DNA from: Rhodanobacter thiooxydans
Lineage (GTDB): Bacteria > Pseudomonadota > Gammaproteobacteria > Xanthomonadales > Rhodanobacteraceae
Assembly: GCF_030291135.1 (NCBI RefSeq)
Contig: NZ_CP127409.1
Location: 1,116,001 to 1,180,000, forward strand
Reading direction: 5' to 3'
Length of the DNA: 64,000 bases
Of the stretch, positions 47,215 through 64,000 are shown piece after piece. The notes beneath the pieces were generated by a model that was not told the DNA's origin, did no database searches, and saw only the letters and a program-made list of their open reading frames with translations. Position 1 is the first letter of the stretch, and each line of letters begins with the position of its first letter. The position numbers and the translations under genes are program-made.

Positions 47215-47844
47215 ATGCGAGCCATGACCATCCAGATCACCCAGCGCCAATTGAACGTCCTTGCCTTCATCCGCGCCCGGATTGAGCGGGACGGGCAGTC
47301 GCCCACGCTCGAAGAAATCGGCGACGCCCTGGGGATCGGCAATGTCAGCGCAGTGCTCAAACACGTCCGCTCGCTCGAAGCGAAAGGCAGGGTGACGATC
47401 GAACCCAACCACGCCCGCAGCATTCGCTTGGTGCGTGAGTCCGACCCTATGGATGCCGACACGCTCGATCTACCTCTGATCGGCCGTATCGCGGCCGGCG
47501 AGCCCTTGTTTTCGGAGTCACGGGTCGATCGCAGCCTGCGCGTGTCCCGTTCGCTGTTCCGGCTGCGGCCGGACTACCTGGTGAAGGTGGTCGGCGATTC
47601 GATGCGCGACGAAGGCATCCTGGATGGCGATCTGGTGGCGGTGCATGCCACGCCGGTAGCCCGTCATGGTCAGGTGGTCGCAGCACGTGTCCGCGGCAAC
47701 GAATTCACCATCAAGCGACTGCACTGGAAAGGCGATGTGATCCGGCTGATGCCGAACAGTCCGGGCTTCCAACCCATCGACGTGGATCCCACCGAAGACT
47801 TCGCAATTGAAGGTCTGTTTGCAGGCCTGCTGCGGGGTAGCTGA
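47215..47844 (+). CDS. lexA2: LexA-family SOS repressor of the imuABC cassette
   Basis: This 209-residue repressor has an N-terminal winged HTH (QRQLNVLAFIRARIERDGQSPTLEEIGDALGI) and a C-terminal S24 latent protease. The self-cleavage bond is A94-G95 (GRIAAGEP), nucleophile Ser129 (VVGDSM) and base Lys167 (FTIKRL). RecA filaments should trigger cleavage and derepress the operon. The start could be ATG 47215 or 47224. It overlaps imuA by one base (TGATG). Since it heads a mutasome cassette it is the LexA2-type paralogue; the chromosome probably has another lexA. Confidence 0.92.
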   Translation: MRAMTIQITQRQLNVLAFIRARIERDGQSPTLEEIGDALGIGNVSAVLKHVRSLEAKGRVTIEPNHARSIRLVRESDPMDADTLDLPLIGRIAAGEPLFSESRVDRSLRVSRSLFRLRPDYLVKVVGDSMRDEGILDGDLVAVHATPVARHGQVVAARVRGNEFTIKRLHWKGDVIRLMPNSPGFQPIDVDPTEDFAIEGLFAGLLRGS

Positions 47845-48467
47845 TGAACGCTGCAGTCCCACTCTCCGCGTTGCTCGATGCGCGCCAGGTCTGGCGTGGT
47901 CGTGCCCCCGAGGTGCCGGTCGGTGATCAACCCACCGGTTGGCGCGCACTCGATGCGGTGCTGCCGGCAGGCGGATGGCCCGAGGCCTCGTTGTCCGAGA
48001 TCCTGTTGCCCGTCGATGGCGTAGGCGAACTTCGTCTCGTGCTGCCCACGCTCGCACGGTTGACCCAAGGTCAGCGCCATGTGGTGATCGTGTCGCCACC
48101 CTACGCGCCATGTGTCGCCGGCTGGCGTCAGCAAGGCGTCGACATGCGCCGTGTCGAATTCGTGGATGCCGGTGAGAAGGATGTGCTCTGGGCCACTGAG
48201 CAGTGCCTGCGATCGGGAAGCTGCGCCGCGGTACTGGCTTGGCCGCATCACGCCGACGATCGCGCCTTGCGGCGTCTACAGGTCGCCGCGGTCACTGGGC
48301 AGGCTCTCGCTTTCGTGTTCCGCGATCGCTCCCACCTTTCAAACGCTTCGCCTGCCGCGCTGCGTCTGGAACTGGAAGCACCGCCACGTCCGCAGATTTG
48401 GGTGCGCAAATGCCGAGGTGGCGCCGTGCCCGCCCACGCCATTCCCTTGCCACGTTCTGTCCATTGA
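47844..48467 (+). CDS. imuA: Translesion synthesis protein ImuA
   Basis: This 207-residue protein of the ImuA (SulA/RecA-like) family starts at TGATG coupled to lexA. Typical segments are TGWRALDAVLPAGGWPEASLSEILLP near the N-terminus and AVLAWPHHADDRALRRLQVAA. ImuA binds RecA and ImuB and is needed for DnaE2-dependent mutagenesis in species that lack UmuDC. No Walker A motif is obvious, as usual for the family. Confidence 0.9.
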   Translation: MNAAVPLSALLDARQVWRGRAPEVPVGDQPTGWRALDAVLPAGGWPEASLSEILLPVDGVGELRLVLPTLARLTQGQRHVVIVSPPYAPCVAGWRQQGVDMRRVEFVDAGEKDVLWATEQCLRSGSCAAVLAWPHHADDRALRRLQVAAVTGQALAFVFRDRSHLSNASPAALRLELEAPPRPQIWVRKCRGGAVPAHAIPLPRSVH

Positions 48468-48479
48468 TGGCGGCCAGAC

Positions 48480-49883
48480 ATGCTTTGGCTCTGCATCTAC
48501 CTGCCACGTCTGGCCTTGGATGGGATTCTCCGACGCCGGCCCACGGACGATCCGTTGGTGCTTGTCGACGGACCCGTCAACGCACGCACGATCGTTTCGG
48601 CCAATGAAGCTGCCCGAGCGGCAGGCTTGCATGTCGGGCAGCGGCTGAGCGCAGCCCAAGCGCTGCTGTCGCAGTTCGAAGCGATCCCCTATGACCGCGA
48701 GTCGGTGGAGCGGTGGCTCCGGTTCCTGGCTGCTGTGGCTTACCGATACAGCTCCGAGGTCAGCCTGCTGCCGCACGCGATCGTGCTGGAAGTCAACAAG
48801 AGCATGGGCTTGTTCGGGCCATGGCCACGGCTTGAATCCATGCTGCGGGCCGACTTCACCGACCTAGGATTCCGCCATCGCATGGCAGCGGCGCCGACGG
48901 CTCACGCCGCCCATGTGCTGACCACAGTTTCCGATGGGCAGGCGGTGCTGTCCGTCGACATGCTGCGCAACGCTCTGCAGCGGGTGCCGATTGCGAAGAG
49001 TCATTTGCCCGCGAGCGCGATCGCGGCGCTGCCGAGCATGGGCATTCGTACCTTGGGCCAAGTGCTGGCACTACCGCGAGACGGACTGCGTCGACGTTTC
49101 GGTGCGGAACTGCTGGCATCCTTGGATCGTCTGACCGGCGACTTGCCGTCCGGTTTGGCGTTGTATCGGCCGCCGGATACGTTCGACCTGCGCATTGAGT
49201 TGCTCCACGAGGTGGAGAACCTATCGGCGTTGATCTTCCCCGTGCGGCGCATGGTCGATGATCTGGCTGCCTATCTCGCTGGCCGCGATGGCGGGGTGCA
49301 GCGTTTCTTGTTGCGCCTGGAACACCGCGACGGTCGCTTCACCGATGTGCCGGTGGGCTTGCTGGCGTCGGAACGCGACGGTGCCTTGCTGTTCGAGTTC
49401 GCACGTGGCCGGCTGGAACACGTAACGCTGCCTGAGCCGGTGCTGGCGTTGCGCCTGATCGCACGTGACCTGCCGGCGTTCGTGCCCGCGGGACGTGACC
49501 TGTTCGACGAACGCCCCGCGAACGCGTTGCCGATCGAGCAAGTGCGCGAGCGATTGCGGGCGAGGCTAGGCGATGGTGCGGTCTATCGACTGGGTAGCAC
49601 GCAAGATCCCCGGCCCGAGCGCGCGCAGCGCGAAGCCACGCATGATGAAGTGCCGATCGAGCCGCACCCACGCCCTACGTGGCTGCTTCCGCGCCCCATT
49701 CCGTTGCGCGGTGGGAACCCGATCATCCTGGCGGGTCCGGAGCGCCTCGAAACGGGTTGGTGGGATGGTGGTGAGGTCTGCCGCGACTACTACGTCATCG
49801 AAACCTCACTAGGGCAGGAGGCCTGGGCATTCTGCGCACCTGATGAGCAGACCGGCTGGATGATTCACGGGTGGTTCGCATGA
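48480..49883 (+). CDS. imuB: Y-family polymerase-like protein ImuB
   Basis: This 467-residue catalytically inactive Y-family polymerase homologue serves as the hub linking ImuA, DnaE2 and the beta clamp. The palm/finger region has [22 protein letters not shown] and [21 protein letters not shown], where the acidic SIDE-type catalytic motif of Y-family enzymes is replaced by VNKS. Helix-hairpin-helix-like [17 protein letters not shown] and a little-finger-like domain follow. Its stop overlaps dnaE2 (ATGA). Confidence 0.92.
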
Positions 49884-52800
49884 CGGCCTATGCGGAACTC
49901 CATTGCCTGTCGAACTTCTCGTTCGGCCGCGGGGCATCCAGTGCTCGAGAGTTGTTCGAGCGTGCGAAGGCGTGCGGCTATACCGCCTTGGCGATTACCG
50001 ATGAGTGCTCACTTGCCGGCATCGTCCGCGCACTGGAAGCCTCCCGCAGCACGGGCGTGCCGTTGATCGTCGGTTCGGAGATCCAGCTCGACGATGGTCC
50101 GAAGCTTGTCGTGCTGTGTGAAACGAAAGCGGGTTACACGGCGCTGTGCAGCCTGATTACCACGGGGCGGCGCACTTCTGAGAAAGGTACCTACCGACTG
50201 ACGCGCGCCGACGTGGCCACGGGTCTTCCGGGCACGCTGGTTCTATGGGCACCTAACCTGATCGTCGACATGGCTCACGGTCGCTGGGTGCGACAGACGT
50301 TCGGCGATCGTGCCTGGCTGGCCGTCGAGCTGCATCGCGGACCCAACGACGCACGGCGAGTGAGTGAGCTGGAAGCGATCGGACGCGAGCTGGGTCTGCC
50401 GCTGGTGGCAGCGGGCGATGTGCACATGCACATTAGGCGACGGCTGGCGCTGCAACACACGCTCACCGCCATCCGGCACCGCGTGCCCATCGCAGAGGCG
50501 GGAGGGTTGATCGCGCGCAATGGCGAACGACACCTGCGTCGCCGGCATGTGCTCGCCAAGCTCTACCCCAAAGGGTTGCTCGAAGAGAGCACACGGATCG
50601 CGGCGCGGTGCACCTTTACGCTCGATGAGCTGCGCTACCGCTATCCGGCCGAGCTCGTCCCGGACGGTCATACCCCCACCAGCTGGCTGCGCCAGCTGGT
50701 GGGGGAGGGCGCACGATGGCGCTGGCCTGAAGGCGTGTCGGACAAGGTGCACAAACAGCTAGAGCACGAACTGGGGCTGATCGAGTCGCTGCGCTACGAG
50801 GCCTATTTCTTGACCGTGCACGACATCGTGCGTTTCGCGCGCAGCCAGGGAATCCTTTGCCAAGGACGTGGTTCAGCGGCGAATTCCTCGGTGTGCTTCG
50901 CGCTCGGCGTGACCGAGGTCGACCCGATGAAGATGAGCCTGCTGGTTGAGCGGTTCATCTCCAAGGAGCGCAACGAGCCGCCGGACATCGACATCGACTT
51001 CGAGCACGAGCGCCGGGAAGAGGTCATCCAGTACATCTATCGGAAATACGGACGCGAGCGTGCTGCTCTCGCCGCCACCGTCATCTGTTACCGCGGCAAG
51101 AGCGCTGTGCGGGACGTGGCCAAGGCCATGGGGCTGCCGCTGGATCAGGTCGATCAGCTGAGCCAAGTATTCGCGTGGTGGGACGGCGACGAGTCACTCA
51201 ACGAGCAATTACGCGAGCGAGGATTCGATCCGGAGAGCGCGGTTATCCAGCGCGTCATCAAGCTGACGGCCGAGATCCTGGACATGCCGCGTCACCTGTC
51301 GCAGCACGTCGGGGGTTTCGTGATCGCCGATGCGCCATTGAGCGAACTGGTGCCGGTGGAGAACGCTGCGATGCCCGATCGCACAATCATCCAGTGGGAC
51401 AAGGATGATCTGGACGCCATGAACCTGTTGAAGGTCGATTGTCTGGCCCTGGGCATGCTCACCTGCGTCCAGAAATGCTTGAACATGCTGCGCGACCAAC
51501 GTGGACAGGATTACTCGATGGCCACGCTGCCATCCGAAGATCCCGACACCTACGCCATGATCCAGCGGGCGGACACGGTGGGCGTGTTCCAGATCGAGTC
51601 ACGCGCGCAGATGGCCATGCTGCCCCGGCATCGACCGGAGAACTTCTTCGATCTGGTAGTGCAAGTCGCGATCGTCCGGCCCGGCCCCATCCAGGGCGAC
51701 ATGGTGCACCCGTATCTGCGACGGCGTAGGGGCGAGGAGCCCGTCGACTATCCCTCGGAAGAGTTGAAGGAAGTGTTCGAGCGCACGCTGGGCGTGCCGC
51801 TGTTTCAGGAACAAGTGATGAAACTGGCCATGATCGCAGCGGGTTACACCGCCGGAGAGGCGGATGGGCTACGGCGCGACATGGCCGCATGGAAGCGGCG
51901 CGGCGGCTTGGAGAAGCACCGCGAACGCATCCTGACCGGCATGACCGATCGCGGCTACACCACGGCGTTTGCCGAGAAGCTGTTTGAGCAGATCAAGGGC
52001 TTCGGCAGCTACGGATTTCCAGAAAGCCACGCCGCCAGTTTCGCCGGCATCGTCTATGCGTCGTGCTGGTTGAAGCGCCACGAGCCGGCGGCATTCGCCT
52101 GTGCGCTGCTGAACAGCCAGCCCATGGGCTTCTATGCACCGAGTCAGATCGTGCAAGACGCTAGGCGTCACGACATCGAACTTTTCCCTATCGACGTGCA
52201 GTGCAGCGATTGGGACAACACGCTTGTCACTCGCGAAGAAGAACCTCCAGCGATCCAACTTGGCTTACGTCAGGTGCGCGGGTTCAGTGAGGAAGCTGCA
52301 CGTCGGATCATGGTGGCCCGTGCCCAGCGTCCGTTCGCCGACATCGCGGATCTTTGCGCGCGAGCGGCCGTGGACAAGCGTCACCAGGACTTGCTGGCGC
52401 AGGCCAGCGCCCTGCGAGGTTTGTCGCGGCACCGGCACCACGCACACTGGGAGATCGCCGGTGTGGAAAAGCAGCTGCCGCTCTTCGGCAACGTCAGTCC
52501 GGCAGAGATCGAAGTGGCCTTGCCGAAGCCGACGCAGGCCGAGGACACCCTGGCGGACTATGCGCGCACCGGACTGACGTTGGGCGTGCACCCTATGGCG
52601 CAGATCAGGGATCGGTTGCGCGCGGCTCGATGCACGGACTCACGCACGCTGTGCAAACGACCCCACAACACCTATGTGCGAGTTGCCGGGATCGTCACGA
52701 TGCGTCAGCGACCACAGACCGCCAGCGGTGTGACGTTCCTGACGATGGAAGACGAACACGGCTTGGTCAACGTCATTGTCTGGCGCGATGTCGCCGAAAC

Positions 52801-52951
52801 CCACCGGCGGGTATTGTTGGAGTCAGAACTGCTGGGAATCGACGGACGTTGGGAGGCGGTCGATGGCGTGTGCCATCTGATTGCCAGTCGCCTGCTTGAC
52901 ATGAGCGAGCTGCTCGGTGGGCTGGATGTGCGGTCGAGAGACTTCCACTGA
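49880..52951 (+). CDS. dnaE2: Error-prone DNA polymerase III alpha subunit DnaE2
   Basis: DnaE2 (ImuC) is the polymerase of the ImuABC mutasome. The 1,023-residue protein has an N-terminal PHP domain ([29 protein letters not shown]), then [25 protein letters not shown] DNA-binding and palm segments. The catalytic Asp pair is in [15 protein letters not shown] near residue 370. A (HhH)2 motif and an OB domain near the C-terminus ([27 protein letters not shown]) follow. As usual for DnaE2, the C-terminal tau-binding region is absent. Start ATG 49880 overlaps the imuB stop. Confidence 0.96.
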
Positions 52952-53328
52952 GCGCCTCGGGCGAAACACGCGGTGCCAAGGTAAGTCTGGATGTCACGGA
53001 AAAGCGCGAGAAGCACACGCCAGCGATGACGACATCCAGGCTACCCAGGCTCAACTGCATACAGCGGATTGAATGCGCTACGCGACCGATCCACGATCAC
53101 CAGCCCGCCGGCCATCATGATTAGCTGCAGAGCCGCGTCGACCGGCGGAAACCGACCCATAGCGGACATCCACCGCCCGGTGGTCAGAGTACGCCAGATG
53201 CAGAGACCCGGCAATGCGAGAAGAGCAGCATCACCGCTGGGCCCTCACAGCTCATAAGCGTCATTTCCGGAGTATGTGATAGCTTGCGTTCTCGCGGGGC
53301 ATAAGAAGGCGGGGGCACGTCGGCACGC
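52952..53328. other. Intergenic stretch between dnaE2 and the OLD-nuclease gene
   Basis: 377 bp separate the SOS operon from the defence pair. A 42-codon minus-strand frame (53041-53169, starting MSAMGRFPPVDAALQLI) lacks a ribosome site and is not called. I see no terminator with a T-run. This is a plausible junction between two modules, as GC content and codon use change afterwards. Confidence 0.45.
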
Positions 53329-55470
53329 ATGCACATCTCCAAGTTAATACTCATCAATTATCGGAATTTCGCTAGCGCCACCCTGCGATTCAATAAAGGC
53401 GTAAATACGATCATTGGCGAAAATGGCTCAGGAAAGTCCAATGTACTAAGAGCTATCAGACTCATGCTGGACGACAGCATGATCTGGGCTTCATACAAGC
53501 TCAATGAGTCGGACTTCTACCGGGGACTTGGTTCTTGGCGCGGTCACTGGATCGTCATCAGCGTCGAGTTCGACGAGATCAGCGCAGATGAGGCGGTTCA
53601 GGCGCTCTTCGTGCATGGCACGGGAGTTGGGCAGGCTGGGGGGGGGGTAGGGCGAGCAACATACAACCTGATATTCCGCCCAAATAAGCAGATCAGAATG
53701 AGTCTGGCAGCGCTCGCGGACTTTGATGTAGCTGGAATGAAGGGGATTCTCGATCGGGTAACGATCGACGACTACGAAACTGTATTTACGGGGCGGAGCG
53801 TTGCCGATTTTGCAGATCCAGCGACCTATCGGCGCATCGTAGGAGACTTTGACCACGCTGTATTTAGTAGTGAAATCGAATTTCCGGAGCTGGGTGCTCG
53901 CATTCCTGGCACGCTGTCGGTCACCAAGGAAGTGTCATTCACCTTCATTCAGGCGCTGCGCGATGTGGTGTCCGAGTTCCACAACAACCGGACCAACCCA
54001 CTACTCACACTGCTGAAGAGCAAGAGCGGACAGATTGACCCTGTCCAGTTTCAGCCAATCGTAGACCGCGCGCGGCAGCTGAACGCAGAAATTGAAAATC
54101 TAAACGATGTGCGAACTGTTCGCTCGGACATCGTGGAGACGATCCATGGAGCTGCCGGGCAGACCTATTCACCGTCCCTGTTGGCAATCAAGTCTGATCT
54201 TCCGGATGAAGCGGATTCTCTGTTTCAGTCACTCAAGCTCTTCGTCGGCGAGTTCGATGCGACCCATGAGGGCAGCATCCAGGAGCTAAGTCTTGGAGGC
54301 GCCAATCTCATTTTCCTGACGCTGAAGCTTCTGGAGTTCAAGTATCAGCACGAACGTCAGGCGCTTGCGAACTTTCTGCTTATCGAGGAGCCAGAGGCGC
54401 ACCTGCACACGCACGTCCAGAAGACGCTGTTCGATCGAATTGGATACGCCGGGGCGCAGATTATTTACTCGACGCACTCGACACACATCTCCGAGGTGAG
54501 CAACGTTCAGAGTGTCAATATCCTTGGGCGCACCGGGACTGCTTGTGAGGCGTTCCAGCCGTCTGCGGGGCTTGCTCCTGACCAGGTGGGGAATGTCCAG
54601 CGCTACCTCGATGCCGTTCGCAGCAACCTGCTCTTCGCAAAGAGCGTGCTCTTGGTGGAGGGTGACGCCGAAGAAATCCTCATCCCTTTGATGGTGAAGA
54701 AGGTTCTTGGCGTGAGCTTGGACGAGCTTGGAGTCAGCCTAGTCAATATCGGGAGCACCGGCTTCGCGAATGTCTCCGTGCTGTTCCATGAGACCAGAGT
54801 CCGGCGACGTTGTTCGATAATCACGGACCTAGACGCGCCATTTATGAACCCGCATGCCCTGCCGGGCGACGATCCGGAGACGTTGAAATTCAAGAGCAAA
54901 CTACTCGGTGCCCAAACGTCTGGCGCGGCTCGCAAAGTCAAACTCGATGCGCAGGCGGCAGGCAACGCATGGCTTCGGCCCTTCTATGCGGACAATACGT
55001 TCGAAGTTGACTTCGTTGCGTGCGGAAACGCGGGGGCGGTAGTCGCATCAGTGAACGATGTCTATGCGCAACCCGCAACGCGCGCTCAGTCCATAACTGA
55101 GCTGAACTCGGGCGATCCCACTCAGTTCGGGAGGCGCGTGCTCACCATGGCCAACTACGAAGGCAAGGGTTGGTTCGCTATTCTTCTGGGCAAGCGGATT
55201 GACCATAGGACCGTCGTTCCGCCCTATATCCAGCAAGCGATCATCTTCGCGCACGGCACGTTCTCGACCGAGCTGATCTTCAACATATTGAAGCACAGAG
55301 TGACGGTCAACAATCCAAGCGGAACCACCACACCGCCAGCACTGCAACGCTATTGGGAACGCCTGCTTGAGTATCGCGCAGGTCGAGTTGACTTCAACAC
55401 CATCAAAGCGGAGGCAGCTATAGGACTTCCCGGCGATCAGATCCTTGCATTTTTGGGCGATCTACCGTGA
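53329..55470 (+). CDS. OLD-family ATP-dependent nuclease with TOPRIM (GajA-like)
   Basis: This 713-residue protein has an ABC-type ATPase half with Walker A GENGSGKS (30-37), signature-like LSLGGANLIFL (about 321-331) and Walker B FLLIEEPEAHLH (349-360). A C-terminal TOPRIM nuclease has E444 (LLVEGDAEE) and D500/D502 (IITDLDAPF). OLD nucleases nick DNA; GajA in Gabija is the nearest analogue, with a helicase partner, although GajA is usually shorter (about 580). A G10 tract sits in codons 104-106 (see repeat entry). The gene overlaps the helicase start (GTGA). Codon use is less GC-biased than that of the core genes. Confidence 0.88.
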   Translation: MHISKLILINYRNFASATLRFNKGVNTIIGENGSGKSNVLRAIRLMLDDSMIWASYKLNESDFYRGLGSWRGHWIVISVEFDEISADEAVQALFVHGTGVGQAGGGVGRATYNLIFRPNKQIRMSLAALADFDVAGMKGILDRVTIDDYETVFTGRSVADFADPATYRRIVGDFDHAVFSSEIEFPELGARIPGTLSVTKEVSFTFIQALRDVVSEFHNNRTNPLLTLLKSKSGQIDPVQFQPIVDRARQLNAEIENLNDVRTVRSDIVETIHGAAGQTYSPSLLAIKSDLPDEADSLFQSLKLFVGEFDATHEGSIQELSLGGANLIFLTLKLLEFKYQHERQALANFLLIEEPEAHLHTHVQKTLFDRIGYAGAQIIYSTHSTHISEVSNVQSVNILGRTGTACEAFQPSAGLAPDQVGNVQRYLDAVRSNLLFAKSVLLVEGDAEEILIPLMVKKVLGVSLDELGVSLVNIGSTGFANVSVLFHETRVRRRCSIITDLDAPFMNPHALPGDDPETLKFKSKLLGAQTSGAARKVKLDAQAAGNAWLRPFYADNTFEVDFVACGNAGAVVASVNDVYAQPATRAQSITELNSGDPTQFGRRVLTMANYEGKGWFAILLGKRIDHRTVVPPYIQQAIIFAHGTFSTELIFNILKHRVTVNNPSGTTTPPALQRYWERLLEYRAGRVDFNTIKAEAAIGLPGDQILAFLGDLP
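53638..53647 (+). repeat. Homopolymeric G10 tract inside the OLD-nuclease gene
   Basis: Ten consecutive G residues (CT-G10-TAG) encode Gly104-Gly106 and the first base of Val107. Loss or gain of one G would shift the frame before the ATPase core is complete. Such tracts are classic slipped-strand phase-variation sites. As read here the gene is in frame. Confidence 0.9.
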
Positions 55471-57269
55471 CGTTCGTCTGGACTCGGACCGAGCTCAACG
55501 ATGAACAGTCGGAGGCTGTGCGAGAAGAGAACAGCGTATTCCTGGTTGCCTGCCCGGGCAGTGGTAAGACCAGAACACTTACCTACAAGATCGCCTATGA
55601 GCTCTCGCGCCTACAGAGCAAGCGACAGTTCATCGTGGCTCTCACCTATACGCATCGAGCGGCTGACGAAATTCATGAGCGTATCGAAATGCTTGGCGTC
55701 GACACGTCGCAGCTATGGATAGGGACAATTCACTCCTTCTGCCTGGAATGGATTTTGAAGCCCTATGGCATCTACGAGCCTGCTTTATCGAAGGGCTTCC
55801 GGATCATGGATGGCTACGAGCAAGAGAAACTACTGGAAGAGCTGTGCCGAACGCAACGAGGCATCACCTACTGGGACTGTGAATACTATTTCACCGACCA
55901 AGGGTACATTCTGGCTTGCAGGGATCAAAGCAAACACGAACGCCTTCGCGCCATCTTTGCACTGTATTTCCGCCATCTCGCGGACAACAAGCAAATTGAC
56001 TTTGAGCAGATCCTCTTCTACGCGTCGCGACTGATCGGAAGTCAACCGCAGATCACAACGGTCCTAGCCAATATCTTTCGGTGGATGCTGATTGACGAAT
56101 ACCAGGATACCAAGAGAATTCAATACGCGATCGTCGCAGCCATCGTGAGGGCTGGAGCTGAGCGAACAAACCTTTTTGTTGTGGGCGATCCTAACCAGGC
56201 GATCTTTGGCTCGCTTGGGGGCTTCGCGATGCCGGTTGCCGAACTTCGGCGACTCTGTGGTGTTCGGCTGGAAGAGCGTGCACTGTCTGAAAACTATAGG
56301 TCCACTGATCGGCTAATTAGGTACTTCTCGAACTTCACAGTTCAGACGACCGGCATTCGCGGAGCTGCATCCGACCGAGCGTTTCCCAGCAGCATCAGCT
56401 ACAACACCAATGTGGAGCGAGACCAGCTGGAGGCCGAGCTTGTGAGACTGATCAGGCTCAGTACTGCACAAGGGTTTTCCGCAGATCAGATCTGTGTACT
56501 GGCGCCGTGGTGGATTCTGTTGGCGGGAGTGACACGTCGACTTGCAGGCGCTTTGCCGGAGTACCAGTTCGATGGCCCGGGCATGGTCCCTTTCAGCCGC
56601 GATCAAGAAAACTTCTGGTATCGGTTGTCGCGGATAGCATTGACGGAGGCATCCCCCACGCAGCATGTGCGGCGGATGCGTTGGGCGGCAGAGGTGATCA
56701 GAGATCTAGGAAGTGAAGGCATCGACACTCGAGACCTATCTGCCAAGCGGCTTCTTCGGGAGAGCAATTCCATCCGGCTGAATCAGCCCGATGGGCTGCT
56801 GTATCTAAGAGAGTTCTTCGCTTCGTTGATGGATCGCCTCGGGGTCGACTGGCAATCACACGCTTTGCTCTCGGAGCATCATCAAGCCTTCTTTGAGAGT
56901 TCGGCCGCGAAGATTGATCGGTTACGCAGGGAAGGTACCGCGTATATCGGCGGAATTGACTTCTTCCGCAAAGTGTTTCAACACCGCAGCGGTATCACCG
57001 TCAACACCATCCATGGAGTCAAAGGTGCGGAGTTCGACGTAGTGATTGCGTTTGGCCTGCTGCAAGGAATGGTCCCGCATTTCAGCGAAGAAGCGGAGGC
57101 GGATGGAGGCGTCAACAGCGCCAAGAAGTTGCTCTACGTCGTTGGCTCTCGGGCGCGCAAGCACCTTTATCTAATCTCGGAGCGGCAACGCATGAGGGGT
57201 GGGGGACGTGGCCCATACGCGGCAACAGACACGCTTTCTGAATGCGTATTCGACTATGACGTCGTGTAG
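55467..57269 (+). CDS. UvrD/Rep-type SF1A helicase (GajB-like)
   Basis: This 600-residue SF1 helicase has motif I ACPGSGKT (28-35), motif Ia ALTYTHRAADEI, motif II LIDEYQDT (208-215), motif III VVGDPNQAIFG (238-248), ENYRST motif IV and TVNTIHGVKGAEFDVV (motif V). It starts at GTG 55467 overlapping the nuclease stop (GTGA), so the two proteins are made together. The OLD-nuclease plus UvrD-helicase pairing is the Gabija architecture for phage defence. Assignment is by architecture, not by close sequence comparison. Confidence 0.88.
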   Translation: MTFVWTRTELNDEQSEAVREENSVFLVACPGSGKTRTLTYKIAYELSRLQSKRQFIVALTYTHRAADEIHERIEMLGVDTSQLWIGTIHSFCLEWILKPYGIYEPALSKGFRIMDGYEQEKLLEELCRTQRGITYWDCEYYFTDQGYILACRDQSKHERLRAIFALYFRHLADNKQIDFEQILFYASRLIGSQPQITTVLANIFRWMLIDEYQDTKRIQYAIVAAIVRAGAERTNLFVVGDPNQAIFGSLGGFAMPVAELRRLCGVRLEERALSENYRSTDRLIRYFSNFTVQTTGIRGAASDRAFPSSISYNTNVERDQLEAELVRLIRLSTAQGFSADQICVLAPWWILLAGVTRRLAGALPEYQFDGPGMVPFSRDQENFWYRLSRIALTEASPTQHVRRMRWAAEVIRDLGSEGIDTRDLSAKRLLRESNSIRLNQPDGLLYLREFFASLMDRLGVDWQSHALLSEHHQAFFESSAAKIDRLRREGTAYIGGIDFFRKVFQHRSGITVNTIHGVKGAEFDVVIAFGLLQGMVPHFSEEAEADGGVNSAKKLLYVVGSRARKHLYLISERQRMRGGGRGPYAATDTLSECVFDYDVV

Positions 57270-57464
57270 CTCAAAGCTGTGGGTAATGTTTCCGTTGGAA
57301 TGGAATGGGTCCAATCGGACAGGCGCCGATGTCCGCTTCTGGCCGATTCCGGCCGGTGACCACGCGCTGACCAGGATGCCGACGCGCGCGACATGCTCGA
57401 TTGGTTCTGCTGATCAGCTACGTTGGTGTGCGTAGTCCGCTTGAGCTTGCTGAGATTGGAAGCA

Positions 57465-58454
57465 TCAAGGCTTCTTCTGCTGCACCAGTTGATGTTCGTA
57501 GTAGGGCCGCACTCGTCGGTCGAGGATCGCATACTGGCTCACGTAGTCACTCGGGCTCGGATCGAGCCACGCATCGATGTCCTCTTCTTGTATTGGAACG
57601 GGACACCGGTCGTGGCCCGCCTCAACGACTTCTGAGGGCGGGTCATCGGTGATCGCGGCGAACGTGTAGAACCCCGGATCGTCGCCGGCTGCCTCGACAT
57701 AGGTCCAGAGACAGGCGACGAAGAGGTTCTCACCGGTCGATGGCGTGAACAGGATCTCCACGCTTTGCTCGCGCTCACCCGGTACCAGCGCTCGTTGCTG
57801 CAGATTGTGGAGATACACGCTTTCGTAGAACCGATCCACGATCATGATGCCGTGGTTGTGGCCGAACACCTTGCGCCATACGGTGGAGAGCTTGTCACGC
57901 CGCGCATTGTACGTGCCTGGCTTCTCGATCTCATCGGCCTCTGTCCAGCCGGGGAGGCGACAGCGGTAGCGCATCGGGACTACCAATCGCTCGCCCGATT
58001 CAGGATCACGAATCATCACCGGAGCGAAGTGACCAGGCCAGATTCTGTCGATGCCATCGGCGGATGCTGGCAAGGCTAAGTCTTCGAGCTTCTTCCTTCC
58101 TGCCTCAATCTTGTTGATCGCGACGCGGCGATCGGTCTCGGCCTTTTTGGTCGGTTTGCTTGACGCCAGCTTGGCGTTCGCCTCGACAAGGCGCGCTTCT
58201 TGGACTCCGATCTCAGACACGATGAAGGCGATTGCCTCAGTTTCCGCTTCGCGCGCCATCTCGATCGTGCCGATGTCCAGCACGCCTCTCGTAGCGTCGG
58301 TCATCGCGCGGCGCATCGCCTTCGGGACAACCTTGATCCAGTTGCCCTTCTTCTTCGTCCATCCCGCAAGTTTCGTAAATTCCTTGATATCGAGCTTTCC
58401 GCCAAGACGCTCGTATTTTCTGAAGTCCGCCCAGATCTGCGCCGAGTAGCACAT
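57465..58454 (-). CDS. SRAP-domain protein (YedK/HMCES family), long form
   Basis: SRAP proteins form a thiazolidine crosslink with abasic sites in ssDNA through the N-terminal Cys2, exposed after Met removal. Here the start is MCYSAQ. Supporting residues are Asn/Arg in [12 protein letters not shown], Glu in [11 protein letters not shown] and the His in [12 protein letters not shown]. At 329 residues it is longer than YedK (about 220), the excess being a basic Lys/Ala-rich helical insertion near residues 60-125. It lies downstream of, and convergent with, the OLD-UvrD pair. Its role is protection of abasic sites by homology. Confidence 0.9.
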
Positions 58455-59998: not shown

Positions 59999-62900
59999 TC
60001 AGATATCCAGCTTCGGAAAGGCGCGGACGATCTTCAGGGTTTCGAGGCTGACGGTGATGACGCGTAGGAACAGTTCCAGCGGGTACTTGGGGTTGTGCAT
60101 GGTCTCAAGCGCCCAGTCGTTGGCGTCGTTGACGATGCCGCTGGCTTTGTCGGTTTTCACGCACTGGCGTTCGATCACCCAGTCCAGCGCGGGCTTGCCG
60201 TTGACGACGTAGTCGTAGGCTTCGGGCGGGATGCCGGTGACGGTGATGTGGGTGTTATAGACGAGGCGGGTGAGGTCTTTCTTGCCGCCGGCCTTGGGCA
60301 CTTTCATCTTTTCCACGAGGTAGTCGGCGTCGCTGAGCTTCTTGTTGCCGGTGTCGAGTTTGGCGCTGGCGTACATCGGCACGGTTTCGAAGTTCAGGTG
60401 CAGATCGGCCAGCGCTCGGCCAGCCTTGCTGAAGGCCCAAAAGTCGACGGCTGTCTTTACGCGCGGGATGCGCGGCAGTTCCTTGACGAGGTTGTCGGCG
60501 TAGCGCTCGCTGTAGTCGGGCGAATGCAGCAGGCCGTAGATGTAATAGAACAGGTCTTCCTTGCCGATCTTCTCGCCGGAGTAGGCGGACGTGAAGTGCG
60601 CGAGACCGGTATCGGTGATGGCGTCGCGGCGCTTGCGCGTTGTGGGTTTGGTGGCGTGCTGGTCGAACAGTCCGGATTGCGGGGTGTCGCTGTCCGCTGA
60701 AACCGGTTCGTCGTAGAGGTAAAGCGGAAAGCAATGCCCGGTGTCCATCGTGTGGCGGTTGGTCAACGCATCCGCCATTAAGACCGAGAAACCCGTGCGT
60801 GCACCAATTCCGGTCACACATAGCAGCAGATTTTCGGCTGCTGCGGTCGGAAAGATGCGTGGCATCTGGTACGCACTCCAGATACACGAGCGGTCAAAGT
60901 AGAAGTACGCCTTGGTGAACGGGCGATAGCACGCCGTTACTACTCGATCGGTGCTGAACTTGATTACCTTGTTCGAGGCGATCCCCCGAAGCAACTTATC
61001 GTCCCACCCAATCTTTTGCGCATCCTTTTCGACGAACTTGACCGGTTCAGCAGAAGCACCGGTCGCCTGGTACCTACCCCGTTCCTCGTTGTAGAAGCCA
61101 ATCATCCGTTCAACGTTGGCGGTCAACACCTGCTTCGAGAAGCTGTACACCCAACTATCGCGATTGGTAATCACGCCGTATGAATAGTCCTCAAATAGTG
61201 CGGCGTGGCCAGTCTTGTCGCCCAAGACGATGAAATTGCTGAAACCGCTGTCACGCTGGCGCAGCCAGTCTCCGTACTCGTCGGGCTCGATGTTTTGCCA
61301 GCAATCTGCTTTGGCGACACCATCGACACTACCCAAGCTGACAATCGACGCCAGCTTCTCGTCACGGCTCATTTCATGCCCAATGTCATGGAAATAGACT
61401 CGTCCGCGTTGCTGAGCCTCGGGGTTCTTAACAAGTACTGAGATGGCGATTCCAGCCATGCTGCCACTTCCGAATATATTCTGGCCTTCCCCAGCCCTCC
61501 CTTTGCTCAACATGTTTTTGCGAATGTCGCCTCGCAGATGGAACACGTAAATGTTAGAAAATTCATCGGCTATGCATCGGCGCATTCCATCCGTACTCTT
61601 CGCATCCAACCAACCGGCGTTCGTGACGAAACCAATGACCCCTCGATTGCCGATGCGGTCACTGGCCCAGCGGATGGCGCGGATGTACGAGTCGTAAACG
61701 CTTGTCCTTGTGCGTGCATCAGATCGATGCGCGTATGTGCGTGCGATCTGCGCGTCGAGATTTGGATAACTTACGTTCTGGTTGTCGTCAGCCGCATCGG
61801 ATTGCCCAATGGAATACGGCGGGTTGCCGAGGATGACGCGAATATCCAGCTTCTTCTGCCGCTTGCGCCGCGCGCTGTTGTCCACCAGCAGCGCATCCAC
61901 CAAGTCGTCCTTCTCGTACATCTGGAAGGTGTCGGTGAGGCAGATGCCGGGGAACAGTGTGTACTCGCTGGCGCACTTCGCTTCATCCTTCCCAGCCTCG
62001 GGCCCGCGCAGCAGGTCGTGGTAGGCGGTTTCGATGTTGATGCTGGCGATGTAGTAGGCCAGCAGCACCAGTTCATTGGCGTGGATTTCGTGCTGGTACT
62101 TGTACGGCAGGTCGGCGCGCGAAATGAAGCCGGATTGCAGCAGGCGGGTGATGAAGGTGCCGGTGCCCGTGAAGGGATCGAGGATGTGCACGTTACGGTT
62201 GCCCAGCGACGTGCCGAACTCGTTGCGCAGTACGTCCTGCACGCTGGCGATGATGAAGTCCACCACTTCCACAGGGGTGTAGACGATGCCAAGGCGCTTG
62301 GACAACTCGGGGAAGGCGCCGTTGAAGAACTTGTCGTACAGCTCCTTGATGATCTTCTGCTTGCCGGCGGCGTCATTGATGCCTTCGGCGCGCTGCCGAA
62401 CGCTGGCGTAGAACTCGGTGAGGGTGTCGGCCTCCTTGTCCAGGCTATGCTCGTCCAGGGTGTCGAGCACCTTCTGCATCGCCTGCGACATCGGGTTCTG
62501 CTTGGCGAAGTCGTAGTTCTCGAACAGCGCCTCGAACACCGGCTGGGTGACCATGTGCTGGGCCAGCATCTCGACGATTTCGGCGTCGGTGATCTCGTCG
62601 TTCAAGTCATCGCGCAGCTCGGCGGCGAAGGCGTCGAACGCCTTGCGCTCTTTCATGTGCGTCGGGTCTTCGAGGATGGCCTTAATGCGGTCGATGTGGG
62701 TGTTGGCGATCTTGGCAATGTCCGCCGCCCATTCTTCCCAGTGGTGGCGGTTGCCGACCTTCTGCACCACCTTGGCGTAGATGGCGCGCTCGATCTCGCC
62801 GATCTCGAACTCCATTTCCACCTGTTCCTGCGGCTTGTCCGCCACCGCCTGGCCGATGGCGTTACCGCCGCGCGCGTTGGCCGCGTGTTTCTTGCTGGTG

Positions 62901-64000
62901 TTGGCGCGCAACTGCGCCGCCTTCTTCTGCACCTTGTCGGTGACGGCCACCACTTCCATCTTGCTGGTGTCCTTGCCGTTGAACTCCAGCTTGTTGATCA
63001 TCGCGTCGAACTTGTCGTCGTGCGAGCGCAGTGCCTGCAAGACCTGCCACACCACCTTGTAAGTGGAGTTGTCGTTCAAGGCCTCGTGCGGCTCCTTGCC
63101 GGCAGGGATCACCACCGGCAGGATGATGTAGCCGCGCTGCTTGCCCGGCGCCTTGCGCATCACTCGGCCTACGGCCTGCACTACGTCTACCTGCGAGCTA
63201 CGCGGAGTGAGGAACAGCACGGCATCCAGCGCCGGCACGTCCACGCCCTCGGAGAGACAACGCACGTTGGAGAGGATGCGGCAGGTGTTGGGCGGCGTCT
63301 CGGCCTTCAGCCAGTCGAGCTTGGCTTCCTTCTCGCTGGCGTTCATGCCGCCGTCGACGTGCTCGGCCTTGCACTGGAGCGTAGCAGCGACTTCCTCCGC
63401 GCTGCCCTCGGTGGTGGCGGTTCGCTGGTATTCCTCCACCACGGCCTGGAACATCTTCGCGATGTTCTTGGAGCCGACCTTTTGCACCTTGGCGCCTTTC
63501 TTCGCCTCGATGACGTGGCAGAACGCTACCGCGCGCTGCATGGGGTGGCCGTCGCCTGCCAGGTCGTTCGTCAGCCCTTGCTTGGACAGCGCCTTCCAGC
63601 AGCCGACGATGCGCGCGGCATCGTCCATCTTGAGGTCATTGTCGCCGCTGGAGAGCAGTTTCTGCAGGCGGCGGTTGATCGCGGTTTCCTCCACCGCCAG
63701 GACGATCACCTTGTAGTCGGACAAGAGATCGCGGCGCACCGCTTCGGAGAAGCTCAAGGTGTAGAGCGTGTTGCCGAACCAGGCCGGGTTGTTCATTCCG
63801 TAGGTTTTTGCCCGGTCGCGTTCGGCCTTCGCCTCCGCCTCCGCGCTGTAGATGCGCGGGGTGGCGGTCATGTACAGGCGCTTCGCGCCCTTGATGAAAT
63901 CGGCGTCGTGCACCTTCACGAAGTGGCTTTCGTCCTCGCCCTCGAAGGTGGCGCCGGTGGTGCGGTGGGCCTCGTCGCAGAGGATGAGGTCGAACTCGGC
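59999..64000 (-). CDS. Type ISP-like single-chain restriction-modification enzyme (5' end beyond the edge)
   Basis: The open frame runs through the right edge, giving 1,333 visible C-terminal residues. It begins with the helicase motif II (LILCDEAHRTTG), motif III KRLYMTATPRIYS and motif VI QAVGRVMRK, then a long helical coupler. An N6-adenine methyltransferase follows, with motif I ILDPFTGTGTFITRL (about 600 residues from the edge) and motif IV VILGNPPYSIGQ. A C-terminal target-recognition region completes it. This order (nuclease-)helicase-methylase-TRD in one chain is that of type ISP enzymes such as LlaGI/LlaBIII. The expected N-terminal Mrr-like nuclease lies outside the window. A coupled 205-residue gene follows. 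Confidence 0.88.
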   Translation of the reverse strand, partial: AEFDLILCDEAHRTTGATFEGEDESHFVKVHDADFIKGAKRLYMTATPRIYSAEAEAKAERDRAKTYGMNNPAWFGNTLYTLSFSEAVRRDLLSDYKVIVLAVEETAINRRLQKLLSSGDNDLKMDDAARIVGCWKALSKQGLTNDLAGDGHPMQRAVAFCHVIEAKKGAKVQKVGSKNIAKMFQAVVEEYQRTATTEGSAEEVAATLQCKAEHVDGGMNASEKEAKLDWLKAETPPNTCRILSNVRCLSEGVDVPALDAVLFLTPRSSQVDVVQAVGRVMRKAPGKQRGYIILPVVIPAGKEPHEALNDNSTYKVVWQVLQALRSHDDKFDAMINKLEFNGKDTSKMEVVAVTDKVQKKAAQLRANTSKKHAANARGGNAIGQAVADKPQEQVEMEFEIGEIERAIYAKVVQKVGNRHHWEEWAADIAKIANTHIDRIKAILEDPTHMKERKAFDAFAAELRDDLNDEITDAEIVEMLAQHMVTQPVFEALFENYDFAKQNPMSQAMQKVLDTLDEHSLDKEADTLTEFYASVRQRAEGINDAAGKQKIIKELYDKFFNGAFPELSKRLGIVYTPVEVVDFIIASVQDVLRNEFGTSLGNRNVHILDPFTGTGTFITRLLQSGFISRADLPYKYQHEIHANELVLLAYYIASINIETAYHDLLRGPEAGKDEAKCASEYTLFPGICLTDTFQMYEKDDLVDALLVDNSARRKRQKKLDIRVILGNPPYSIGQSDAADDNQNVSYPNLDAQIARTYAHRSDARTRTSVYDSYIRAIRWASDRIGNRGVIGFVTNAGWLDAKSTDGMRRCIADEFSNIYVFHLRGDIRKNMLSKGRAGEGQNIFGSGSMAGIAISVLVKNPEAQQRGRVYFHDIGHEMSRDEKLASIVSLGSVDGVAKADCWQNIEPDEYGDWLRQRDSGFSNFIVLGDKTGHAALFEDYSYGVITNRDSWVYSFSKQVLTANVERMIGFYNEERGRYQATGASAEPVKFVEKDAQKIGWDDKLLRGIASNKVIKFSTDRVVTACYRPFTKAYFYFDRSCIWSAYQMPRIFPTAAAENLLLCVTGIGARTGFSVLMADALTNRHTMDTGHCFPLYLYDEPVSADSDTPQSGLFDQHATKPTTRKRRDAITDTGLAHFTSAYSGEKIGKEDLFYYIYGLLHSPDYSERYADNLVKELPRIPRVKTAVDFWAFSKAGRALADLHLNFETVPMYASAKLDTGNKKLSDADYLVEKMKVPKAGGKKDLTRLVYNTHITVTGIPPEAYDYVVNGKPALDWVIERQCVKTDKASGIVNDANDWALETMHNPKYPLELFLRVITVSLETLKIVRAFPKLDI

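Follow-up and report, generated by a model that had tools for sequence, protein, structure and literature searches.

A Gabija operon with a run of ten G residues

The window, that is, the whole 64,000-nucleotide stretch of Rhodanobacter thiooxydans DNA analysed here, contains two adjacent genes for an OLD-family ATPase/TOPRIM nuclease and a UvrD-like helicase, and the first of these genes harbors, within its first 15%, an unbroken run of ten G residues. The features concerned are the following.

49871..52951, forward strand: dnaE2-like polymerase gene just upstream of gajA (presumed name)
53329..55470, forward strand: gajA, 713-aa OLD-family ATPase/TOPRIM nuclease, Gabija subunit A (profile matches)
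53638..53647, forward strand: G10 homopolymer, in gajA codons 104-107 (GGG GGG GGG GTA)
53648..53649, forward strand: TA directly after the run, which with nine G's reads, together with the next base, as the stop codon TAG
55467..57269, forward strand: gajB, 600-aa UvrD-like helicase, Gabija subunit B (profile matches; GTG start)

That the two genes form a defence pair of an OLD nuclease and a UvrD helicase, as proposed in an earlier note made from the letters of this sequence, is borne out by profile comparison: at this level, the operon is a two-gene, Gabija-type gajA-gajB system. GajA matched the PADLOC profile PDLC00072 with 996.5 bits over residues 1-710, and GajB matched PDLC00127 with 825.4 bits over residues 3-599. 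The domain layout is that of Gabija, with an N-terminal ABC/OLD ATPase domain (PF13175, AAA/OLD ATPase) and a C-terminal TOPRIM nuclease domain (PF20469, OLD-like TOPRIM, at residues 435-502) in GajA, and an adjoining, overlapping gene for a UvrD-like helicase (PF00580 and PF13361); the NCBIfam scan yielded no family above the cut-off for either protein. The same organization, an OLD ATPase with TOPRIM followed by a UvrD-like helicase gene, is seen in the Gabija of Bacillus cereus VD045, the complex of which has been solved, although the solved GajA chains are mostly 575-598 aa long, compared to 713 aa here, and the sequence similarity is weak (E about 2e-12). Among the solved structures compared by sequence, the best matches were the C-terminal parts of class 2 OLD nucleases (E 7e-13), and GajA structures came next (E 1.7e-12). 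A Foldseek search with a model of GajA returned the GajA structure 8x5i as the top match (E 2.7e-9), with TM values of 0.39-0.50 for the two best GajA chains; the mean pLDDT of this model is only 69.4, and it was used just for this one fold search and for placing the loop discussed below.

The GTG start of gajB at 55467 overlaps the TGA stop of gajA in the tetranucleotide GTGA, just as the earlier note had it, and a four-base overlap is found also in 9 of the 13 homologous loci with a readable junction; in the other four, gajB starts 1-2 bases past the gajA stop, and in one further locus, the pair is cut. Given this recurrence in homologues, the coupling is typical of this Gabija group in general rather than tied to the tract. 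In a promoter and terminator scan of 52900-57600, the sites were no more numerous than in shuffled sequences, and no promoter-like site was found before gajA.

The run of ten G's, the sole homopolymer longer than 7 in the window, is indeed present at 53638-53647 of the nuclease gene. When read in frame, it encodes Gly-Gly-Gly-Val and comprises three glycine codons and the first base of Val107; the codons to which it had been assigned, 104-106, are thus correct for the glycines, and the run itself extends into codon 107. The tract is long enough to slip within the gene, and a one-base change in either direction abolishes the product in silico: with nine G's, TAG follows immediately and the product is 106 aa long, and with 11 G's, it is 119 aa long; two-base changes yield products of 118 and 107 aa. 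We take the Walker A motif of GajA to lie at residue 30 and LSLGG at residue 320 to be the ATPase signature, with IEEPEA, also counted among the motifs, at residue 352. Both the 106-aa and the 119-aa products lack the ATPase signature, the Walker B and the TOPRIM regions in silico, in agreement with the claim that slippage would truncate the protein before the ATPase is complete. Under this model, ten G's (and also 7 or 13, with which the gajA frame is likewise open in silico) would correspond to an operon that is ON, and 9 or 11 G's to a nuclease predicted to be OFF. A truncated gajA may, in addition, deprive gajB of its translational coupling and perhaps, through polarity, of its transcript, and the change in length would be reversible.

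Because 9 or 11 G's break the frame, the allele in the assembly is the in-frame state. This bears also on the possibility that the run is an assembly or base-calling error, such that its true length is different. Long homopolymers are error-prone in some sequencing methods, but ten G's keep open a frame of 713 aa, a length shared by many GajA homologues, and we consider an error very improbable.

Probable accessory setting of the operon

From its sequence and neighbors, we take the gene just upstream of gajA to be dnaE2-like, and the region 47215-52951 as a whole presumably comprises lexA-, imuA-, imuB- and dnaE2-like genes, by sequence and order. In related dnaE2 cassettes of the genus, the DNA similarity breaks off either right at the dnaE2 stop or no more than about 210 bases from it, and gabija DNA was absent from the flank of about 1.5 kb after dnaE2 in all 29 loci that we compared; judging by these sequences, the Gabija pair has the appearance of an accessory insertion. 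In several genomes of the genus, the dnaE2 end has matches at two or more places. We found gajA in 3 of the 45 genus genomes and in 2 of the 369 sampled genomes of the class, the source genome being included in both counts, and the operon was likely acquired horizontally. Relatives are present in 104 plasmid records (61.8% identity in the 40 rows listed), and none were found in the phage and viral collections.

The GC content of gajA-gajB is about 55%, compared to 62-65% in the upstream 9 kb (44-53 kb of the window). Since lowish GC, 55-62%, is found also at 40-44 kb and at 57-62 kb, the Gabija cassette may be part of a larger region of foreign origin. A gene for a Type ISP restriction-modification enzyme is located downstream of Gabija (window 59999-64000, minus strand, running off the window end), and the two may constitute a small defence island.

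A new cassette of this kind could be in a neutral or decaying state, with a donor-like, GGG-rich codon usage, and heading for frameshift and loss, in which case the run would be a step of the decay. Defence genes are often lost, and the low GC content of the cassette relative to the upstream 9 kb is compatible with such a course of events, as is the share of GGG among the glycine codons, 29% in gajA compared to 17% in gajB and 14-24% in four other genes of the window. However, part of this excess is the tract itself, the share in gajA being 25% when its three codons are removed, and the gajA and gajB ORFs are both intact and full length. We therefore regard decay as an improbable account of the run.

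The tract and the surrounding loop in homologues

In none of the 15 homologous loci for which the DNA was read (12 loci, two more from the same genus and locus L099) is there a G tract at the site, these loci being partly non-independent, as the two Cupriavidus loci L012 and L013 are identical at the site, and so are the letters of L020 and L025, which perhaps come from one genome. The longest G/C run among the gajA sequences, complete or partial, of 14 of these loci measures 6, and the maximum over the entire L099 locus is 5. Hence, G10 is peculiar to the gajA described here, and retention of the tract in related genes, a supporting although not strictly defining mark of contingency loci, is not seen. 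In close relatives, the site reads GGC GGC GTG, GGT GGC GTG, GGA GGA GTA and the like, with an equal loop length and no run, and Gly-Gly-Val-Val with mixed glycine codons is frequent at this position; Gly-Gly-Gly is present in the loop in 4 of 120 homologues. Non-tract glycine codons at this site in homologues are one of the two observations that, according to the earlier note, would refute a phase-variable switch, and they do count against it.

The restriction of the run to a single locus bears on another explanation, too, namely, that RNA polymerase slips on the G's and produces out-of-frame transcripts that tune the dose of GajA while the DNA is unchanged. Long homopolymers can cause such transcriptional slippage, but, given that the run is not conserved, we rate this as the least probable of the explanations considered here.

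In the structure model of GajA, the loop is located between the helix 86-95 and the strand 107-118, with pLDDT below 50 at residues 89-106. In the alignment of 121 rows, residue 106 ranks 14th of the 713 columns by entropy, and five of the columns 102-108 (102, 103, 104, 106 and 108) are within the 60 most variable. The loop length is 10 in 45 rows, 9 in 32, 11 in three and 7 in one, the other 40 of the 121 rows being unmeasurable by the pattern used. In a loop so free and variable, the emergence of the run requires just point substitutions, without net length change, and likely proceeded from GGN GGN GTN to GGG GGG GGG.

Among the 120 matches listed of 3194, the best full-length homologue is 89% identical to GajA and no gajA allele from the same species was seen; P0055, the one listed protein at 90% identity, covers 80% of the query, is shortened at the C-terminus alone and has a different loop. 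Four proteins that were considered as candidate frameshifted alleles, P0027, P0029, P0038 and P0040, were rejected: their first residues correspond to positions 46-51, ahead of the tract, and, as TTG or GTG starts occur in some relatives, the choice of start is likelier than a frameshift. None of the 120 listed homologues starts in or after the loop, N-terminal fragments of 106-119 aa falling outside the length range of the search.

Long G/C runs in the genome and the genus

The source genome (3.5 Mb; a single contig of 3,516,421 bases) encodes a histidine kinase with 98% identity to one of Rhodanobacter sp. LX-100, which likewise points to Rhodanobacter as the likely genus. It contains 30 G/C runs of at least 7, nine of at least 8, three of at least 9 and three of at least 10. 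Under a first-order Markov model, 0.07 G/C runs of at least 10 are expected per window, so that G10 is an outlier there, and simulations with Markov orders 2 and 3 produced runs of this length in 0 of 30 cases. Geometric extrapolation from the counts of 30 and 9 gives 0.81 runs of at least 10, with a probability of 0.049 for three or more. We also used a codon-usage null, in which the synonymous codons of the 41 proteins called in the window (82% of its length) were drawn at window usage and the counts were scaled to the genome; these gene calls are approximate, and scaling in this way treats the window as representative. This null yields 1.5-1.9 runs of at least 10 per genome in coding DNA, compared to the three observed in all sequence, and 195-212 runs of at least 7, 43-45 of at least 8 and 8-10 of at least 9, the lower figures being those without gajA. 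The observed runs of at least 7 (30) and at least 8 (9) are five- to seven-fold rarer than this prediction. Such a several-fold deficit of short runs suggests selection against slippery runs, that is, purging throughout the genome. The longest runs occur at about the expected number, and their survival could mean tolerance, recency or use.

Runs of at least 10 are present in 33 of the 45 genus genomes, the source genome included, although some of the very long runs in this survey lie at contig ends and are possibly artefacts. We compared 33 run loci by BLAST (up to 500 bases on each side; E 1e-8 or better), namely, 30 from other genomes, one each with the longest run, and three from the source genome, further runs being omitted. 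No orthologous run was detected among the 33 loci, the sole match being a repeat-like similarity of 52 bases between the flank of the intergenic run of the source genome and one other locus, nor was a conserved set of contingency genes seen among them. With no orthologous run at hand, long runs appear, on these sequences, to turn over within the genus. Ten ORFs at or near runs (9 loci) were scanned, the coding status at the genus runs having been assigned by a rough rule based on GC at codon positions. Pfam matches were obtained for seven of the ten (two glycosyltransferase-named proteins, a CDP-alcohol phosphatidyltransferase, a Crp-type regulator, a NERD-domain helicase, Gcw_chp and a histidine kinase) and a PADLOC match for one, the NERD-helicase.

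The second run of 10 in the source genome (L001:1501-1510; G000:C1:564635-564644) covers codons 5-8, Ala-Pro-Pro-Pro, of a histidine kinase gene, shortly after its start, where this gene overlaps the end of what we assume to be a TPR-like gene; relatives have mixed codons at this site. The third, a C15 run (L003:1501-1515; G000:C1:892898-892912), is located between convergent genes, one of them presumably murA-like, beside a repeat-like palindrome. In another genus genome, G028, a C10 run (L046:1501-1510) occupies the last codons of a 506-codon open frame, which overlaps, by GTGA, the gene for the NERD-helicase that matches a DRT-associated profile of PADLOC; the same genome also carries a gajA, with 60% identity.

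Switch or mutational hot spot

Two known systems offer precedents for a G tract as a switch. In Streptomyces coelicolor, according to excerpts of PMC4365076, the switching of the Pgl system is attributed to a G tract in pglX, with G8 changed to G7 in strains that lost Pgl, and switching frequencies are 10^-2 to 10^-4; the likeness consists in a G run inside a defence gene and a one-base change tied to the loss of the system. The Pgl genes, however, are unrelated to Gabija, and the genome analysed here has mutS and mutL. In Campylobacter jejuni, the tracts described in excerpts of PMC8355987 are mainly G9-G10 and reside inside genes, such as the Type IIG restriction gene cj0031; they vary at rates of 1e-4 to 1.6e-3 in a bacterium without functional mismatch repair, and one poly-G gene affects phage resistance. 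Campylobacter has many poly-G genes, in contrast to the three runs of at least 10 in 3.5 Mb found here, one of which is in gajA. Our literature search found no paper on phase-variable Gabija, and the excerpts of PMC12707154, PMC12926258, PMC12409358 and PMC12137116 contain no link between Gabija and phase variation.

The corresponding reading of the locus at hand is that G10 is an evolved contingency locus, a slipped-strand switch maintained by selection that would turn the whole Gabija operon ON or OFF in a subpopulation, like pglX in Pgl. Several observations are compatible with it: the length of 10 is within the range known to be phase-variable (G8 in pglX and G9-G10 in Campylobacter, per the excerpts cited above), the tract is in the first 15% of gajA, shifts of +1 and -1 both truncate the protein soon past the run, the gajA/gajB overlap would extend the effect to gajB, and G10 persists in a genome in which short runs are depleted. 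Moreover, excerpts of PMC12407980 state that highly expressed Gabija is not viable in a recB mutant of Pseudomonas aeruginosa PAO1, so that being OFF could, at least in theory, pay. On the other side of the balance, the tract is present in only one of 16 loci, the window included, no orthologous run was detected among the 33 run loci, and the number of long runs is explicable by codon usage. Furthermore, mismatch repair is apparently in place: mutS scored 1137.5 bits and mutL 589.2 bits, the latter in two stretches of one open frame, and neither gene has an internal stop. As both genes are there and unbroken, one would expect switching far less often than in phase-variable species that are free of mismatch repair. 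Taken together with the turnover of runs in the genus, these findings weigh against the suggestion that the run is kept as a switch. We consider an evolved contingency locus to be unlikely, even if the least unlikely of the alternatives, and it is equally doubtful that the tract provides bet-hedged Gabija immunity in an environmental, mismatch-repair-bearing bacterium.

Thus, we favor, with a probability of about 0.65, the reading that the locus is an ordinary, likely horizontally acquired Gabija operon in which G10 did not evolve as a switch but is an incidental hot spot of mutation. The tract is lineage-specific and intrinsically slippery but likely incidental, and, as the evidence stands, phase variation is the less likely of the two readings. 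Several points argue against this preferred reading. With runs of 7 or more and of 8 or more so strongly depleted, there could be a reason why one is tolerated in a defence gene that is potentially costly; the number of runs of at least 10, three, somewhat exceeds the 0.81 of the geometric extrapolation (P 0.049); and three glycines in a row would all be encoded by GGG in only about 1.6% of cases at the usage of gajA outside the tract. By analogy, the length of the run is within the range that is phase-variable in other species, and a defence-type operon predicted in another genome of the genus has C10 at a GTGA overlap (L046, above).

If the tract does vary, Gabija would join the few defence systems that are switched by homopolymer slippage, such as Pgl and some restriction systems, and this would represent population-level hedging of a nuclease-helicase system that is able to harm the host when RecBCD is impaired. 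If it does not, the locus calls for caution, in that a switch-like G run in a high-GC genome is about what codon usage yields once or twice per genome.

Two further runs in the genus, each in a different genome, could be slippage-prone as well, namely, a C13 run early in a glycosyltransferase-like gene (L033:1501-1513) and a G14 run early in a gene for a Crp-type regulator (L044:1501-1514).
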